64,000 bases of DNA from Bacteroidia bacterium (GTDB taxonomy: Bacteria > Bacteroidota > Bacteroidia > J057): the NCBI GenBank assembly GCA_033391075.1, contig JAWPMV010000001.1:5580001-5644000 (forward strand), written 5' to 3'. Made by a program: the position numbers and the translations under genes. Positions 52,676 through 59,832 of this stretch are shown piece by piece. Numbering within the stretch: position 1 is the stretch's first letter; each line of letters starts with the position of its first letter. The notes under the pieces are model-generated. The model was not told the DNA's origin. It made no database searches and was given only the letters and a program-made list of their open reading frames with translations.

Positions 52676-53545
52676 ATGCGGAAGCGAGTTATCAGAAGAT
52701 TTGTCATGGACGAGAAACATATATTTTTTATAAAGGATAAGCGGCTTTTTCAGTTTTTGCTGGCTACTCTCGCACTTTTACTGAGCGGTAGTATTGCAGC
52801 GAATAAGTTAAATCCTGTCTATCTGGGACTTCTCATTATTTCTGGTTTTTGTGGAGTAGTTTTAATTTATGACCTTCCCTTAGTTAATCACCGATTACCA
52901 CTCCGGGAAAGGTTGCAGGATTTCCTCCAACATAAAAGAAAGGTCTTTTATACTGCTTTGCTTATCCTGATTTCTCCTTTTGCCATAAACTACTTCTCTG
53001 CCTTTAGTTTTGTCCTCCTGGCCATCACCGCAATTTTAGGCGTTCTCTATTCTTTTCCTTTGAAAATAAAGGGAGAATTTACCCGGCTCAAGAACTTTCT
53101 TTTCCTTAAGAATTTTATGATTGGAATTGCCTGGGGATCCCTGATTCTGATAGGCGGGGGAAGCTGGGAAGATCCCTTGCTGATTTCTCTTTTCATATTC
53201 GCCAGCCTGCAAGTATTTATTGGTAGTATGATTCGGGATGTACCAGATCTGGAGAGAGATATACGGATTGGAATCAGAAGCTTTCCTGTCGTTTATGGAG
53301 TTAAGCATAGCATTGTATTCATGCATATACTCAACCTCCTTTCCTGGGGCCTTAGTTTCTATCTTTATGGTAATATGGAGTCTATGATTCTGGTTTCCAT
53401 AATCGTCCTTTGGCGCTATGTAAATCTACTCATGCTCAATAAGTATCAAAGGTCTAAACTCTGGGGTCAGAGTTTCAACCTCATGACCTGCAATCTCTTT
53501 TTTGGGGTATTATTAATTCAACACCTTTATGGACTTTATGTATGA
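52676..53545 (+). CDS. UbiA-like prenyltransferase family membrane protein
   Basis: About 289 residues with eight or nine hydrophobic helices. The start is uncertain: TTG 52649, ATG 52676 or ATG 52706 are all in frame. The second Asp-rich motif of UbiA enzymes is clear: GSMIRDVPDLERDIRIGIRSFPVVYG. The first motif is degenerate: 'IYDLPLVNHRLPLRER' stands where many bacterial small members read '(V)YTLDRLLD', so Mg-diphosphate binding by that motif is doubtful. 'GVLYSFPLK(I)KG..TRLK' is also family-typical. Real family members move prenyl groups onto aromatic or lipid acceptors in the inner membrane. The next gene overlaps its end by 17 bases, marking a tight operon. Confidence 0.75.
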   Translation: MRKRVIRRFVMDEKHIFFIKDKRLFQFLLATLALLLSGSIAANKLNPVYLGLLIISGFCGVVLIYDLPLVNHRLPLRERLQDFLQHKRKVFYTALLILISPFAINYFSAFSFVLLAITAILGVLYSFPLKIKGEFTRLKNFLFLKNFMIGIAWGSLILIGGGSWEDPLLISLFIFASLQVFIGSMIRDVPDLERDIRIGIRSFPVVYGVKHSIVFMHILNLLSWGLSFYLYGNMESMILVSIIVLWRYVNLLMLNKYQRSKLWGQSFNLMTCNLFFGVLLIQHLYGLYV

Positions 53546-54053
53546 AATAAGCCCAATGTACTGGGCTTCCCTTATTTTAATATCAGCCACAGGCTTTACC
53601 ATCCTCTGGTTATTTGATGCCCTTACCCACAAAGAGTTGGTCGAGGTAGATATCACGGATAAGGAATTACAAACACATCGAAATATTCTGGTCGTTTCTG
53701 TCCTGATGGAAATGTCTCTGGTAGGGATGTACTGGTGGAAGCTGGAAATGCTTCCCCTTTTCCTCACCTTCTTTATCGTAAGGACAGTGCATGAGTTTAT
53801 AGACGAACTTCACTTCCATACCGACAGATGCAGTGTATATGAATCTCGTTTACATCTGGGCATGTGGGTCTTTGTGATTGGGAAAACGATTGCCATGTTT
53901 ATGTGGGGCTTCTTTACCCAATACCAGGGCATCGAAAGCTTACCACTGATCTATTATATCTGGGGAGCGATTATTCTCTCAGTCATGTCTGTAGTCAGCA
54001 TGGCAGAATGGCAAAGAGGCCTGGACATGAAATGGGTAAAACTCAATATATGA
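53529..54053 (+). CDS. Four-helix membrane protein of unknown function
   Basis: A 174-residue integral membrane protein with about five hydrophobic segments. Between them is a conserved-looking polar stretch, 'RTVHEFIDELHFHTDRCSVYESRLHLGMW', holding four His, several Glu/Asp and one Cys, which could bind a metal or substrate at the membrane face. No family was recognised. The gene overlaps the UbiA-like gene by 17 bases and the reductase gene by 4 (ATGA), so it is an integral part of the operon. Confidence 0.72.
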   Translation: MDFMYEISPMYWASLILISATGFTILWLFDALTHKELVEVDITDKELQTHRNILVVSVLMEMSLVGMYWWKLEMLPLFLTFFIVRTVHEFIDELHFHTDRCSVYESRLHLGMWVFVIGKTIAMFMWGFFTQYQGIESLPLIYYIWGAIILSVMSVVSMAEWQRGLDMKWVKLNI

Positions 54054-55063
54054 AAGCCTTGTTCCTAACGGGATACGGATTCAACATCAAAGACAATGTC
54101 AAATTCCTCAAAAAGGAAATAGGCAGTCCGGGTCCCCATGATGTACAGATCAGCGTTCATGCTGCGGCCTTAAATCCCGTGGACTATAAGATTGTCTGGG
54201 GATTTGCCCTCATCATTACCCGTCCTAAACGTCCCTTTGCTTTGGGATTTGATCTGGCGGGGACTGTGATAGGCAAAGGCGAGCAGGTAAAGGATTTCGA
54301 TATGGGAGATGAGGTATATTCGAAAGTGCCCTGGGAACAGATGGGAACCCTGACAGAGGAAATCATTGTCCACTCAGATGCGGTCGCCCTGAAACCCCGA
54401 AATTTGAGTTTTGAGGAGGCTGCCGGTATTCCTTTGATCTCCTGTACTATTTATGATGCTTTTGAAGTAGCCGGAATAAAGAAAGGGGACCGTGTTTTGA
54501 TCACAGGAGGTTCTGGAGGAAGTGGAAGCTTTGCAATACAGTATGCAAAGCATTTGGGTGCCTATGTATATACGACTACCAGCAGCTCCAATGTCGATTG
54601 GGTAAGGGAGTTGGGAGCAGATGAGGTAATCGATTATAAAAAGAAGGATTTTAGAAAAGAGATAAGCGAATTGGATATTGTAATTGATACCATAGGAGGA
54701 AGATATCCCTGGCAAAGTTTAGAAGCAGTAAAAAGGGGAGGAAAAATTATCTCCATAGCCGGACATCATGATGAGGAAACCTTGAAGGAAGTAGGCATCG
54801 CCAAAATCTTTCGCCTCCTTTTCCAACTCAAAGGAAGTATCCTCATGTATCGCATGCGGAGGAAAGGAGTTTTCTACAAGCATGTGTGGAGTTATCCAAA
54901 TCAGGAAAAGCTCAACTACATCCGTAAGCTTTTTGAAGAAGAAAAGATTAAAGCAATCGTAGATAGGGTTTACGAATTCAAAGATGCCGTTGAAGGGCTT
55001 TTATACCTAAAAACCCATAGAGCCAAAGGAAAAGTGATCATCCGGATAAAAGAATCTTCTTAA
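54050..55063 (+). CDS. Zinc-free MDR family oxidoreductase
   Basis: A 337-residue medium-chain reductase. The start MKALFLTGYG overlaps the stop of the preceding gene (ATGA). The N-terminal GroES-like part is 'VHAAALNPVDYKIVWG' and 'PFALGFDLAGTVIGKG', and the nucleotide site is 'VLITGGSGGSGSFAIQYAKHLGAYVYTTTS', where GGSGGSG replaces the usual G-x-G-x-x-G loop. No zinc cluster is present. Such enzymes reduce quinones, enones or prenyl-type double bonds with NADPH. It lies in the operon with the UbiA-like protein and the flavoprotein. Confidence 0.87.
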   Translation: MKALFLTGYGFNIKDNVKFLKKEIGSPGPHDVQISVHAAALNPVDYKIVWGFALIITRPKRPFALGFDLAGTVIGKGEQVKDFDMGDEVYSKVPWEQMGTLTEEIIVHSDAVALKPRNLSFEEAAGIPLISCTIYDAFEVAGIKKGDRVLITGGSGGSGSFAIQYAKHLGAYVYTTTSSSNVDWVRELGADEVIDYKKKDFRKEISELDIVIDTIGGRYPWQSLEAVKRGGKIISIAGHHDEETLKEVGIAKIFRLLFQLKGSILMYRMRRKGVFYKHVWSYPNQEKLNYIRKLFEEEKIKAIVDRVYEFKDAVEGLLYLKTHRAKGKVIIRIKESS

Positions 55064-55074
55064 AGAAATTTCCC

Positions 55075-56592
55075 GTGAAGGAGAAAAGAGAAATATATGA
55101 TATGATTATTATAGGTGGTGGACTTGCCGCCAGCTTTTTGTCATTGTCTATTTTTAAACGAAATCCGGATTTTCGCATTCTCATCATCGAAAAAACAGAA
55201 TATTTCCCCCAGAAAATAGGAGAATCCCTGCTAGACATAGCAGCTCTTTTCGTCAAAAGTCTGGATATAGATCATATTCTCTCAAGACATACTGCAAAAA
55301 GTGGAATTCGATTTCTGTTCAATGAAAACAAGAGTTCGGACCTCTCTCAAATAGCCGAATTTGCCAGTCCGACTTTTCCTGGTTTGATCAAAGGCTATCA
55401 TCTCGATAGGAAGCTATTTGATCAGGACATTCTGGATGAGGTTGACCGTAAAGGAGCCCAAATTTACAGACCCGCTCAAATCCTGAGATTCAGCCATGAA
55501 GATTTTAAAAATGAGCTTGATCTTGAAGTAGCAGGTGAATTTAAAAAAGTGCAGGCAAAATGGCTGGTTGACGCTACAGGCAGGCACCGATACATTCCGA
55601 ATGAATTGAAATGGGAGGACAGGAAAATTGGTTTGAATACAGGAGCCATTATGGCCCATTTCAAAAACATAGCCCCTACTGAAATTTGGGATACTCCACA
55701 AAATGAATATTGGGATACGGCTTCTATCGGACTTAGAAAATTTAGTACCACCCATTTGATGCGCAAGCATTGCTGGTGGTGGATCATTCGTCTGGATGAG
55801 GAACGGACCAGCATAGGAGTAGTTTTTGATAAGCATAAGGTCGACTTTGAAGACCCTCAAGCTTTCTTCCTCCAGCAAATACAGGAAGACCCCCAACTTT
55901 CTCTCATGACCGAAGGGGCAGAAAGAGGCAAAATCAGACATATAGAACATCTGCCCTATGTGAGTAAACATTTGTACTCAAAAGGAATAGCCTTATTGGG
56001 AGAAAGTGGAGCCTTTCTTGATCCATTTGTAAGTCCAGGTATAGAGTTGATCGGACAACAATGCATTTTTCTATCAGAGCTTCTTTGTCAGGAAAAAGAA
56101 TCAAATCGCTTTGATGCGAAGGCCTGGAAATCATACGAAGGGATTTTTCAACACGCCTATACTTCTCGTTTGAGAATTTATGAAGAGGCCTATCAGTTTA
56201 TGGACTCCTATGAGCTTTTCACCAATTGGCTCATGCAGGGCAACTTCATGTATTTTGTTCGGGTGGTATACCCAGCGGTCATATTCCCACATCGTCTCAG
56301 ACTCCCTTTGCGTTTCAATCTGATGGAGAGAGTCGCCCTCAACTATTTCAGCCAGCGTTTCAAAAAAATATATGAGCAACGAAAACAGCAAAATCGCCAG
56401 CTAGTTTATCCTCCCAATAGCTTGAAATATTCAGGTGTTCGCCTGACTAGAGGTCCTCGCTTTTTGCTGACCCCAATAATTTTATTTGCAAAAATATTGG
56501 GAGGATATCTGAAACTGGAACTAAAGGAATTGAATTATTTATTCAAGTCTGATCCGGGTCGAGTTCGCTTTTCCTTAAAATCTCCACCCTAA
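55075..56592 (+). CDS. FAD-dependent oxidoreductase of the halogenase/geranylgeranyl reductase type
   Basis: A 505-residue flavoprotein. The FAD-binding start is MIIIGGGLAASFLSLS, followed by 'IEKTEYFPQKIGESL' (the KIGES element of flavin-dependent halogenases and related monooxygenases), and the second FAD site is 'LLGESGAFLDPFVSPGIELIGQQC'. Halogenases carry W-x-W-x-I-P; here the corresponding region reads HCWWWIIRLDE, so the Pro is replaced by Arg and halogenation is not assured. A C-terminal 120 residues are unusual. It ends the operon with the UbiA-like, membrane and MDR proteins (11-base gap to the MDR gene) and may oxidise, hydroxylate or reduce the operon's product. Confidence 0.8.
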   Translation: MKEKREIYDMIIIGGGLAASFLSLSIFKRNPDFRILIIEKTEYFPQKIGESLLDIAALFVKSLDIDHILSRHTAKSGIRFLFNENKSSDLSQIAEFASPTFPGLIKGYHLDRKLFDQDILDEVDRKGAQIYRPAQILRFSHEDFKNELDLEVAGEFKKVQAKWLVDATGRHRYIPNELKWEDRKIGLNTGAIMAHFKNIAPTEIWDTPQNEYWDTASIGLRKFSTTHLMRKHCWWWIIRLDEERTSIGVVFDKHKVDFEDPQAFFLQQIQEDPQLSLMTEGAERGKIRHIEHLPYVSKHLYSKGIALLGESGAFLDPFVSPGIELIGQQCIFLSELLCQEKESNRFDAKAWKSYEGIFQHAYTSRLRIYEEAYQFMDSYELFTNWLMQGNFMYFVRVVYPAVIFPHRLRLPLRFNLMERVALNYFSQRFKKIYEQRKQQNRQLVYPPNSLKYSGVRLTRGPRFLLTPIILFAKILGGYLKLELKELNYLFKSDPGRVRFSLKSPP

Positions 56593-57165
56593 GGAAATCT
56601 GAGGCAGGAAAAAAACCTGCTTTATTTCCTCAGTCCGGTTCTCGATACTGTATGTGGGATTTAGATATAATACACTCCTCAATTGAGGATTTACATATAA
56701 AACATCTTTATAAAAATAGATTTCTCCACCTATATAAGGAGTTAGTAAAATGACATCTACTCTTAAATCTTCCTTGGCAGGATTTACCAGGGTGAAATAT
56801 TCCCAACCACTAACCAGGCCTATATATGGGTTGCTCTCTCTGTCTTTGAAGAGTTCGATCTTATATCGGGTATTTAGGGTGAGCTGTAGTCCCACTCTCA
56901 ATACATCTTCATCAACTGTATTATCAAAAATCCTCTCTGTCAAGACATCGGGAACATCTGTCGCAAGAGTATACAGGGCCATACTCAGCTTCCCATCCTT
57001 TGTCAGGTTTCGGCCGATATGCAGAAAAAAACCATTCAGGATGAAAGGAGAAGGTTCTATTTCCACTCGCCAGTTTTTGGAGGATTCCGAGTTTTCGTCT
57101 TGCGAAAATGCAGATTGCTGGCTAAGAAAGAGGAAGGTCAAAAGAAAAATAACTAGACGGTTCAT
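56575..57165 (-). CDS. Small outer-membrane barrel protein (DUF3575-like)
   Basis: A 196-residue protein with signal peptide MNRLVIFLLTFLFLSQQSAFSQ. The rest is built of amphipathic strands ('SPFILNGFFLHIGRNLTKDGKLSMALYTLATD', 'VGLQLTLNTRYKIELF', 'PYIGLVSGWEYFTLV', 'YIGGEIYFYKDVLYVNPQLRSVLYLNP') and ends in Phe (ISLGWRF), as outer-membrane proteins do. It may be related to the barrel at 35321-36037. It converges with the flavoprotein gene and overlaps its last 18 bases. Confidence 0.7.
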   Translation of the reverse strand: MNRLVIFLLTFLFLSQQSAFSQDENSESSKNWRVEIEPSPFILNGFFLHIGRNLTKDGKLSMALYTLATDVPDVLTERIFDNTVDEDVLRVGLQLTLNTRYKIELFKDRESNPYIGLVSGWEYFTLVNPAKEDLRVDVILLTPYIGGEIYFYKDVLYVNPQLRSVLYLNPTYSIENRTEEIKQVFFLPQISLGWRF

Positions 57166-57236: not shown

Positions 57237-58886
57237 ATGATTAATTTTAACAAAGGAATATTAAGCCTAATCCTTCTCAGCTGTTCGCTCTCACTAATTT
57301 CTCAAATTAGTAGGGGAACTTTACTGGATCAGGAAGCCCCTTTATCTACAGCCTCCTTTTTTACAGCAGATCAACTCAATCTGGAGGCTCTTAGAAAAAC
57401 CACCTCCTTTTTGACAAATCGGGATATAAAGACCTATCGGGGATATCAAATTCCCAAAAGGAAGAAGGCCTTTATGCGGCATGTCAAACACCTAAGCGAG
57501 ATTCTTGAGCAGCACTATCAGGAACAAAAAAAGAGTACAGCCGAGATTCATGAATGGGTGTATGAATTATACCTACTGGAGTCCTCATTAAAACAAAAAA
57601 CGCTGGCCAGAGCAAGAACAAAAGTCACTCTTGGAGAGAAGATTAATCTGGTTCTGGATTCTTATCGGAGTAGAAGGGTATTCCGATACAAGATTCCTGA
57701 AGCGTCGAGGGAAATTTATGAAATTCCTGAATCTCCCTATTATCATCCGCTCTCCAAGGAGCGTTCTCCGCATAAACAATTTGGTTATCTGGCCAAGCAA
57801 AAAAAGGTGGATGCGAAGAAAAATATGGTGGTCCTTTTCAAAGACTTAAGCTTAAGCGGATCAGCCCCTAAAATTGGTACCCATGATCTGGACCTGGACA
57901 ATGAATGGTCTCTGAAATGGGGCGATGAAGTTCATACAGATGTAGTGGGTTCCCGAATATTTGCAGCGCTGGGCTATGATGTGGATCATCCCTATTTCTA
58001 TGGTCGGGATAAACTGACCCTTGTATTTGATGAGCCCACCGAAGTAAATAATGCTGAGGAATTGATACAGGCGCTTAAAAAGATTTACAAAGTAGATATA
58101 GGTCCCTTTATCTCAAATTATGGAACTGTAAGTGAGGAGATGGCAAAGACGCAGAAGAAACTAACCGCCTTTATTGGCAAGCCCTATGTTCGTTTTGTAA
58201 AATGTGCCATCGAGGCTCGTCCGGATCGTGTAAAGCGGATCGGTTCTTTTATTCCCCATACTCCCCTCAATCAGGATCGGCGGGAACTGAAAGCCTCCTT
58301 ACTGGCCCATCATTTTATTGGAAACTGGGATACAAAAGAGTCAAATACTTTATTGACGACGGTTCATAGTGGAAATTACAATTACCGTATTTCAGCTGTG
58401 TTCTCTGATTTGGGTACCAGCATGGGAGTGAGTCTCAAAACCCTGAATCGAGATTTCAAAGTGGGCCTGGTCAACAAATTGCCCTGGGAAGTAGTAAAGA
58501 AAAAGGGGAATAAATTGAAGTTCAACAACCGCATTAATAGCATTTTGCCTGCTTATAAAAAGGCGAATTATCATGACCTGCTATGGATGGCTGAAAAAAT
58601 TGCTTTGCTAGACGAAACTATGCTCCGAAAGATTATAGAAAAGGCACAATGGCCCGAACCTATAGCCGAACTATACTTTCACAAAATGGCATCCAGACGA
58701 GCTTCTATTCTGAAAGCATTTAATATACAAGATCCCCATCCTATCAAATTCGACAGAAAGTTGAACCTGTATGAATTGGGAGAATTGGTGGTGAAGGAAG
58801 GGAAGCTAATCAAAGACTATCAAGCAGACAGGAATCCCGAAAGTTTCCTGAAAAAGAAAGGCAGATTTAGAAATTATGGAAACTAG
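57237..58886 (+). CDS. Secreted protein with kinase-like catalytic motifs
   Basis: A 549-residue protein with a signal peptide (MINFNKGILSLILLSCSLSLISQ). Near residue 365 it has HHFIGNWDTKESNTLL and about 30 residues later FSDLGTSMGVS. This spacing recalls the catalytic loop (D...N) and the metal-binding D-L/F-G of kinase-fold proteins such as HipA, CotH and secreted Fam20-like kinases. The upstream 'DVVGSRIFAALGYDVDHPYFYG' is like the segment where those families bring in the nucleotide-binding lobe ('E...a..la..lG....P'). I do not recognise a named family. It overlaps the next gene by 11 bases, so the pair forms one unit. Confidence 0.6.
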   Translation: MINFNKGILSLILLSCSLSLISQISRGTLLDQEAPLSTASFFTADQLNLEALRKTTSFLTNRDIKTYRGYQIPKRKKAFMRHVKHLSEILEQHYQEQKKSTAEIHEWVYELYLLESSLKQKTLARARTKVTLGEKINLVLDSYRSRRVFRYKIPEASREIYEIPESPYYHPLSKERSPHKQFGYLAKQKKVDAKKNMVVLFKDLSLSGSAPKIGTHDLDLDNEWSLKWGDEVHTDVVGSRIFAALGYDVDHPYFYGRDKLTLVFDEPTEVNNAEELIQALKKIYKVDIGPFISNYGTVSEEMAKTQKKLTAFIGKPYVRFVKCAIEARPDRVKRIGSFIPHTPLNQDRRELKASLLAHHFIGNWDTKESNTLLTTVHSGNYNYRISAVFSDLGTSMGVSLKTLNRDFKVGLVNKLPWEVVKKKGNKLKFNNRINSILPAYKKANYHDLLWMAEKIALLDETMLRKIIEKAQWPEPIAELYFHKMASRRASILKAFNIQDPHPIKFDRKLNLYELGELVVKEGKLIKDYQADRNPESFLKKKGRFRNYGN

Positions 58887-59832
58887 AACACTCATATTCA
58901 CAATCCTCTTTTTATCTATCTTTTCGCTGGCTTTCTCCCAAACCGAAAACCAGCGAAAATATTTGCCAGGGGATTATGTAGGAATCAGTGGCTTTATTCA
59001 ATCTTCTCAAGCTACGGAATCCTTTTCTACACACTTCCATTCGGATGACATGTATTATGATCTCTACCTCGATAGCCCTGATTATTTTTTGTTGAAAAAT
59101 CGGATGTCTCTGAGATTTCGAAAAAGGGTTCCCGGAGATAAGAAAAAAGCTCCCAGCTATGCTTTTCAGCTCAAGAGTGAAATGGACTCCCTCAATAGTG
59201 TCCGGATGGAGGTAGAAGAAACAGAACTGGATTTTTATATGCTAAAGTCAGAAGGAAAATGGATAGCGATGAGCGTATTGCTGGACAGCATTTTCTATTA
59301 TATCGATCAAAATCCGGAGCAGCCTATCAATGCGCGTACCTCTGCGGCCTTTGAATTGATTACGAACTGGATAGCCTTCAAAGCAGGCGGTGCCATTGCT
59401 CCATTCCAAAAGCTCTTGTTTCTAGGATTTAGCCTGGAAGAGATACAGTGTCTTCAACCTGTAACCAGCGGGAAGACCAGACGCATGAGAAGCCATGTTT
59501 ACAGCACTGCTACTCAAACAAACATGCTGGAGGTACAAAAGAATCGAATCAAGGCTAATAAGCTCCCTAAATTTTTCAAAAAGAAGCCAGATCATAACTG
59601 GTTGTTAGAATCTTCGCTGGATATGGCCGTATTCTTTCCCCTATATCCCAGCAAAATAAAAGAAGCCCGGCTTTCTGAATATGAGGTCGAAAATAAATAC
59701 CATCTACCAGAAGTAGGGGAAAAGCTGATGGCAGTTTATGCAAAGGAGTTGTCGGATCGTTTTTCACTTGTCGCCAAATTGGACTCTAAATACAGGCAAG
59801 TGATCCTGGCCTTTGGACAGCTTCCTAAATAA
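58876..59832 (+). CDS. Secreted CYTH/VTC-like domain protein
   Basis: A 318-residue protein with signal peptide METRTLIFTILFLSIFSLAFS. Residues about 50-110 read 'MYYDLYLDSPDYFLLKNRMSLRFRKRVPG' then 'YAFQLKSE', the 'YyDt.d..L...g.sLRiR..g...' and substrate-Lys pattern of CYTH/VTC triphosphate tunnel enzymes. The C-terminal end (EYEVENKYHLPEVGEK...FSLVAKLDSKY) again looks like the acidic and basic strand pairs of that fold. Known relatives hydrolyse or polymerise triphosphates; a VTC-like protein often pairs with a CotH kinase in bacteria. Here the secreted version is paired with the kinase-like protein and overlaps its gene by 11 bases. Confidence 0.55.
   Translation: METRTLIFTILFLSIFSLAFSQTENQRKYLPGDYVGISGFIQSSQATESFSTHFHSDDMYYDLYLDSPDYFLLKNRMSLRFRKRVPGDKKKAPSYAFQLKSEMDSLNSVRMEVEETELDFYMLKSEGKWIAMSVLLDSIFYYIDQNPEQPINARTSAAFELITNWIAFKAGGAIAPFQKLLFLGFSLEEIQCLQPVTSGKTRRMRSHVYSTATQTNMLEVQKNRIKANKLPKFFKKKPDHNWLLESSLDMAVFFPLYPSKIKEARLSEYEVENKYHLPEVGEKLMAVYAKELSDRFSLVAKLDSKYRQVILAFGQLPK

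Follow-up and report, generated by a model that had tools for sequence, protein, structure and literature searches.

Bacteria repeatedly group the gene of a kinase with that of a tunnel enzyme, CotH being found beside polyphosphate polymerase. Clusters of CotH, polyphosphate polymerase and DUF4956 genes have been described, and the available portions of that report leave the role of CotH in them open (PMC7112168); in the accessible part of a second paper, the VTC gene of Clostridium perfringens lies two genes from CotH (PMC2879425). Here we analyzed a 64,000-nucleotide stretch of DNA (the window) from a Bacteroidia bacterium (GCA_033391075.1, contig JAWPMV010000001.1, positions 5,580,001 to 5,644,000 of the forward strand), in which two overlapping open reading frames, ORF1 and ORF2, encode a predicted kinase-fold protein and a predicted triphosphate tunnel protein of the CYTH kind, each with a signal-peptide-like leader. 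The pair appears to be a new all-exported variant of the kinase/tunnel-enzyme pair, since the known CotH-DUF4956-VTC run occupies another place in this genome and its VTC is leaderless.

In the host genome, 9.49 Mb spread over 5 contigs, ORF1 and ORF2 are each matched once, CotH 11 times (two apparently in one 738-amino-acid frame) and VTC once. The VTC gene (L054:1891-2535), which by eye has no leader, lies in a run of DUF4956, CotH (977 amino acids), metallophosphatase and VTC genes at locus L054 (G000:C1:3678000-3688000), so that the canonical arrangement and the exported variant coexist. This run is compact, with 4-base overlaps at two junctions. Like the window pair, the CotH-DUF4956-VTC system groups a kinase-fold gene with a triphosphate-tunnel gene, but its tunnel enzyme is leaderless in the own-genome copy and it includes a DUF4956 membrane protein, whereas the window pair carries leaders on both members and matches neither PF08757 (CotH) nor PF09359 (VTC). 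An earlier note, made from the sequence of the window, had proposed that an exported pair of this kind would be new. Six host CotH proteins that we read all have leader-like N-termini by eye, and an exported kinase alone is therefore not new; the leader on the tunnel partner is. Among the literature matches listed, taken by their titles and the starts of their abstracts and with most subscription literature outside the scope, we recognized no exported CYTH protein or kinase/CYTH pair.

The gene pair and its conservation

Both frames were confirmed, along with the 11 bases that they share and the motifs quoted in the earlier note (Table 1), and each protein by eye begins with a signal-peptide-like leader. 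In the window, the hydrophobic leader ends in ISQ in ORF1 and in FSQ in ORF2. Across the rows compared, a leader-like stretch stands at or near the N-terminus in all 15 ORF1 rows that have one (L022 is cut) and in 13/13 ORF2 rows; these leaders end beside a Gln, with several ORF1 start codons uncertain. The mature ORF2 chain begins right at the first tunnel strand. Judged from leaders read by eye throughout, both proteins appear to be exported. Because the frames are kept among relatives (at 21-67% identity for ORF1 and 33-57% for ORF2) and the ratios of nonsynonymous to synonymous substitution rates (dN/dS) are low, both behave as real genes. For the pair L013/L015 these ratios were 0.10 for ORF1 and 0.13 for ORF2 (partial, 213 codons); second values were 0.17 and 0.18 (dS 1.9, near saturation), and three more comparisons were saturated.

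Relatives are sparse in genome samples. A same-family search found ORF1 in 2 of 13 genomes and ORF2 in the same two. In the class sample, ORF1 occurs in 3/395 genomes, all three of which hold close ORF2 relatives with strong scores, and a class-wide spread of the pair was rejected on this count. The ORF2 profile matches five of these 395 genomes; the other two (G114 and G175) give VTC-like matches (E ~4e-4) and were rejected as relatives of the pair, being by reading leaderless proteins beside a DUF4956-like gene, and Pfam confirms VTC and DUF4956 for G175 (L040). In the phylum sample, the ORF1 matches (3/395) are the genome of the window and two very distant relatives, L007:346-2520 and L008:304-2028. 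The former adjoins a gene whose product, by reading, resembles a PAP2 phosphatase.

A first contig scan with ORF1 alone returned 52 stretches and no relative. A scan with a three-row alignment relied on two patterns, KWGDEVH and P[KN]RKKAF[MI], and so finds only members that keep one of them; it gave 26 loci, 15 titled Bacteroidota and 11 distant (Riflebacteria, Ozemobacter or Ozemobacteraceae, Methylomirabilis, Bdellovibrionales and one Erysipelotrichia). The protein of L009 recurs in L002 and L005, and that of L023 in L006; each was counted once. The ORF1 alignment comprises the window and 23 of the 26 loci, leaving out L020 (X letters), L033 (broken frame) and L034 (contig end). The ORF2 alignment comprises the window and 11 loci. 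L012 was left out for its shortness, L020 for its X letters, and L014 and L021 because their contigs end; the distant loci have no such gene. A kinase-fold family without a name, apparently exported, spans records of Bacteroidota, Riflebacteria, Methylomirabilis and Bdellovibrionales.

In the Bacteroidota, an ORF matching the CYTH profile directly follows ORF1 in all 14 readable loci (the window and 13 others), and in 13 of them the 11-base overlap recurs with an identically placed in-frame ATG, so the overlap is not due to chance; the exception, L009, has a 58-base gap. At L022, the ORF as called mechanically begins earlier with a non-ATG start, which makes the true start uncertain. The contig of L014 shows the same ATG before it ends, and that of L021 ends inside ORF1. 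All Bacteroidota rows long enough to include the end of ORF1 have its NYG tail, encoded in the overlap, whereas it is absent from the distant rows, which have no partner. Pairwise distances for ORF1 and ORF2 agree (r 0.86, 10 pairs, reached in 0/5000 shuffles). We consider a functional partnership of ORF1 and ORF2 probable, and the two may also be physical partners.

Predicted folds and catalytic residues

Neither Pfam nor NCBIfam yields a noteworthy match for the ORF1 sequence, and NCBIfam gave no meaningful match for the ORF1/ORF2 pair. Among the 24 aligned ORF1 members, each Pfam family found is matched by at most 2, HipA_2 by one (E 0.058) and BT_3535-like, the best of the stray matches, by one (E 9.2e-5). 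Against PDB chains, the larger ORF1 profile gave seven chance-like matches (E 0.51 and above), none of them to Fam20C, and two-row profiles gave no useful match. The structure was predicted from the 24-row alignment (predicted local distance difference test, pLDDT, 79.7; predicted template modeling score, pTM, 0.83; the five models spanned 79.7 to 58.0 pLDDT). In VIA-align, its closest matches are CtkA (3akk; Z 11.5, root-mean-square deviation [rmsd] 4.6, 217 aligned), actin-fragmin kinase (1cja; Z 10.8, rmsd 4.4, 233 aligned) and Fam20C (5yh0; Z 10.7, rmsd 3.9, 241 aligned), with HipT at Z 9.0, HipA at 7.7 and the lipid-kinase group at 6.5 and below. The top 17 rows are all kinase-fold (Z 11.5 to 7.7) and include Fam20A; three matches are titled as bacterial or unnamed kinases (Z 9.4-9.1). 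Among the 50 rows listed there is no CotH structure, an absence that is no evidence either way. On this model, ORF1 very likely has a kinase fold, outside of which lies an extra N-terminal part, at about residues 24-190.

CtkA, HipA and HipT are thus among the nearest solved folds, but ORF1 differs from them in having no sequence-family match, a leader and the extra N-terminal part. Fam20C is likewise an exported atypical kinase, but a eukaryotic one without a sequence-profile match, and we know of no tunnel-enzyme partner of Fam20C kinases. The earlier note had likened two ORF1 motifs to the catalytic and metal loops of kinases before any alignment existed, and both hold residues, D365, N370 and D391, that are invariant in all 24 of the sequences aligned, the most divergent of which has 21% identity. 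All three are also present in L020 and L034, and a longer piece of L033 has D365 and N370, with D391 not shown. This invariance across distant relatives led us to reject chance motifs. Conservation of K227 is partly by construction, since KWGDEVH was one of the two locus-finding patterns; L007, which was not selected by pattern, keeps K227 and the other three. A very weak hhalign alignment (probability 0.9%) places D365 and N370 on HipA D309 and N314, residues with known roles in HipA. We lean toward the view that ORF1 is a kinase with its catalytic residues intact and would be active in phosphotransfer.

ORF2 scores 20.5 bits against CYTH (PF01928), below the cut-off of 23.2, so that of the two proteins first described as unrecognized, ORF1 remains without a Pfam family and ORF2 has a sub-threshold match. 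CYTH is touched at E<=1 by 11 of the 12 aligned members (best 1e-7). Taken singly, L019 scores 26.1 bits and L010 23.2 bits, and L018 has no CYTH match. The larger ORF2 profile weakly matched class IV adenylate cyclases in the PDB (E 0.0018 to 0.08), with chance-like repeat-protein matches scoring better (E 1.1e-4). The model (pLDDT 92.6, pTM 0.89) is a closed beta-tunnel and aligns with Arabidopsis AtTTM3 (5a68) at Z 16.9 and rmsd 2.7 over 196 of 203 target residues (Foldseek E 4.5e-8), with YgiF at Z 16.5 and with yeast Vtc2 and Vtc4 at Z 12.0 and 11.8. The predicted structure makes a triphosphate tunnel fold almost certain. It bears out the CYTH/VTC reading as to the tunnel, which also has R80 and R82 invariant in its SLRFRKR signature, and places ORF2 nearer AtTTM3 and YgiF than the VTC proteins. 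Like AtTTM3 and Escherichia coli YgiF, ORF2 keeps the RxR, K and E residues (R110 and E112 are also conserved), but it differs from them in its leader, in Gln at the second Glu of ExExK (11/12) and in its kinase-fold gene partner. Arabidopsis TTM1 (7z67) resembles the pair in coupling a kinase to a tunnel domain, to which ORF2 aligns at Z 11.1; its kinase half is a P-loop uridine-kinase-like domain, different in fold from ORF1.

Both predicted folds, together with adjacency in 14/14 loci, therefore agree with what the earlier note had expected of the pair, and neither of the outcomes that it named as refuting was seen. Its suggestion of a distant CotH analogue is narrowed: the kinase fold stands, with CtkA, actin-fragmin kinase, Fam20C and HipA/HipT as the nearest solved structures. 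The pair could still belong, in diverged form, to the known polyphosphate system of CotH and VTC, in which the same two kinds of fold are paired, in clusters described in the available part of the source (PMC7112168). One such cluster lies in the host genome, and 3 of 12 ORF2 members weakly match PF09359 (best E 2.7e-4). However, PF08757 is matched by 0/24 aligned ORF1 members at E<=1 (HMMER filters drop most matches above ~0.1), and the window ORF2 has no PF09359 match at E<=1, so that both ORF1 as CotH and ORF2 as VTC were rejected by sequence. No DUF4956-like gene was recognized on reading the ORFs near the pair, and Pfam, run on part of these neighbors, gave no DUF4956 match. ORF2 has a leader, whereas the VTC of its own genome by eye does not, and the Z score to Vtc4 is 5 below that to AtTTM3. 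We judge membership in the CotH-VTC system improbable.

Table 1. Features of the gene pair and its surroundings in the window (position 1 is the first nucleotide of the window; counts for neighboring genes over 15 loci are lower bounds, since contigs are short)
Feature	Position	Strand	Basis or conservation
ORF1, kinase-fold protein with leader, 549 amino acids	57237..58886	+	frame, translation, alignment, model
ORF1 signal-peptide-like leader, about residues 1-23	57237..57305	+	by eye
Kinase-fold core, about residues 192-499	57810..58733	+	CtkA aligns with model residues 169-476 (ORF1 numbering is 23 higher)
Lys227 (WSLKWG), candidate beta-3 adenosine triphosphate (ATP)-binding lysine	57915..57917	+	24/24, partly by construction
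Catalytic loop NWDTKESN, residues 363-370, Asp365 and Asn370 (D-x4-N)	58323..58346	+	D365, N370 24/24
Metal loop DLGTSMG, residues 391-397, Asp391 and Gly393	58407..58427	+	24/24 each
11-base overlap of ORF1 end (codes NYG[N/H/Y/K] tail) and ORF2 start	58876..58886	+	same overlap in 13/14 loci
ORF2, CYTH/triphosphate-tunnel protein with leader, 318 amino acids	58876..59832	+	frame, translation, alignment, model
ORF2 signal-peptide-like leader, about residues 1-21, joined directly to first tunnel strand	58876..58938	+	by eye
E24-x-Q26-x-K28, CYTH ExExK strand with Gln at second Glu	58945..58959	+	E24 12/12, Q26 11/12 (Glu in L022), K28 12/12
YYDLYLD, ORF2 residues 60-66		+	read in translation
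SLRFRKR, residues 78-84, R80 and R82 basic tunnel residues	59107..59127	+	12/12
QLKSE, K100 and E102 tunnel residues	59167..59181	+	12/12
R203 and R205, second RxR	59482..59490	+	R203 12/12, R205 11/11 rows with a letter
EYEVENK acidic strand, E268, E270, E272 and K274	59677..59697	+	10/10 rows reaching there
SK[YF] near C-terminus, K305	59785..59793	+	10/10 rows reaching there
UbiA-family membrane protein	52703..53545	+	7/15 loci
174-amino-acid membrane-like protein without Pfam family (164-174 amino acids in loci)	53529..54053	+	8/15 loci
Flavin adenine dinucleotide (FAD) protein (Trp_halogenase/geranylgeranyl-reductase-like)	55075..56592	+	6/15 loci
196-amino-acid protein with leader, Phe at end, perhaps outer-membrane barrel (by eye)	56575..57165	-	near ORF1 in 9/15 loci

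A possible exported phosphotransfer module

These features can be combined into a two-protein phosphotransfer module acting outside the cytoplasm. ORF1 would be an exported atypical kinase with a fold like that of HipA, CtkA or Fam20C, and ORF2 an exported CYTH tunnel protein translated from the transcript that it shares with ORF1, probably via translational coupling. The two would cooperate in the periplasm or on the cell surface: with a metal ion, ORF2 would bind triphosphate or polyphosphate in its tunnel, and ORF1 would pass phosphate to an envelope substrate, perhaps tied to the outer-membrane-like and lipid-type neighbors. We put the chances of this proposal, taken whole, at about even.

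Several observations weigh against it. To our knowledge, no ATP is to be expected in the periplasm. The best Foldseek match of ORF1 has an E of only 0.025, with none at 0.001, so the case for its fold rests on two things, the motif and a list of top matches that consistently holds kinases alone. In hhalign, ORF1 reaches a probability of 0.9% with HipA and 2.1% with six own-genome CotH proteins, where the leaders alone align, and ORF2 reaches 8.2% with YgiF and 0.9% with the own-genome VTC; we therefore claim no sequence-level homology to any of these. Fam20A is a pseudokinase, and since it is among the ORF1 matches, a kinase fold alone shows no activity. The distant relative L008 lacks all four catalytic residues, with Arg in place of K227. 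None of the 11 distant loci has the partner (the contig of L034 ends at the gene), which argues that the kinase family works without ORF2. The overlap suggests co-expression rather than contact, and the agreement of distances, which fits joint inheritance and is no proof of contact, may be explained by shared ancestry.

A further point against the module concerns the metal site of ORF2. Q26 stands at the position of AtTTM3 Glu-4 and YgiF Glu-6, in a register inferred from the ranges aligned by VIA-align (residue 1 of 3v85 pairs with model residue 3, and residue 1 of 5a60 with model residue 1). In the part of the source available, tripolyphosphate hydrolysis by AtTTM3 drops strongly when Glu-4 is replaced by Asp or Ala, YgiF is impaired by Ala at Glu-6, and Vtc4 has basic residues in place of the acidic patch (PMC4641920). 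Because this Glu is Gln in 11 of 12 members, ordinary triphosphate hydrolysis by ORF2 is doubtful and the protein may not be an ordinary hydrolase. ORF2 thus stands between the two kinds of tunnel protein. The loss of a metal-site Glu would suit a pair serving as a scaffold, with ORF1 a nucleotide- or phosphate-binding kinase fold and ORF2 a tunnel that binds tri- or polyphosphate without turnover, for example in sensing or holding polyphosphate in the envelope. Such a role would also suit a compartment where ATP is not expected and a relative, L008, without the lysine, both aspartates and the asparagine. Yet the invariance of D365, N370 and D391 in 24/24 sequences at 21-67% identity, and of nearly all other tunnel residues, seems to exceed the needs of binding, and we regard scaffolding as rather unlikely. 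Another possibility is that the exported kinase needs no ATP: its donor for envelope proteins or lipids would be tri- or polyphosphate that the tunnel protein holds or makes beyond the cytoplasm. We see this as a long shot.

Genomic setting and implications

The pair lies in a recurring set of UbiA, membrane-like, FAD and outer-membrane-like genes, found at 52703-57165 of the window and in L009-L023. A quinone-oxidoreductase-like gene is near ORF1 in at least 2 of 15 loci. The UbiA protein of the window seems by eye to be without the usual first Asp motif (YDLPLVNH, compared with NDFID/NDFTD in L012 and L018), and may be inactive or altered. At L016:8548-13475, genes for an alcohol dehydrogenase, a FabA-like protein and a ketoacyl-synthase come directly after the pair; further on, there are genes that by reading resemble short-chain dehydrogenase/reductase (SDR) and carrier-protein genes, and the locus resembles a fatty-acid or polyketide cluster.

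This setting raises the question of whether ORF1 and ORF2 are two exported enzymes that merely share a lipid- or pigment-type operon (UbiA, FAD, outer-membrane-like), with no joint chemistry. The recurrence of neighbors in related loci and the fatty-acid-type genes after the pair at L016 are in keeping with this. The pair itself, however, stays together in 14/14 loci and overlaps in 13, whereas the five other neighbors tested were found in only 2 to 9 of 15 loci (lower bounds), and we consider a merely shared operon very improbable.

The proposed exported phosphotransfer module bears on where such chemistry may take place, as the pair suggests phosphate transfer outside the cell interior. With both proteins apparently leaving the cytoplasm, the pairing of kinase and tunnel protein is separated from cytoplasmic polyphosphate synthesis, and the role of a kinase fold beside a triphosphate tunnel, where ATP is not expected, becomes a testable question.

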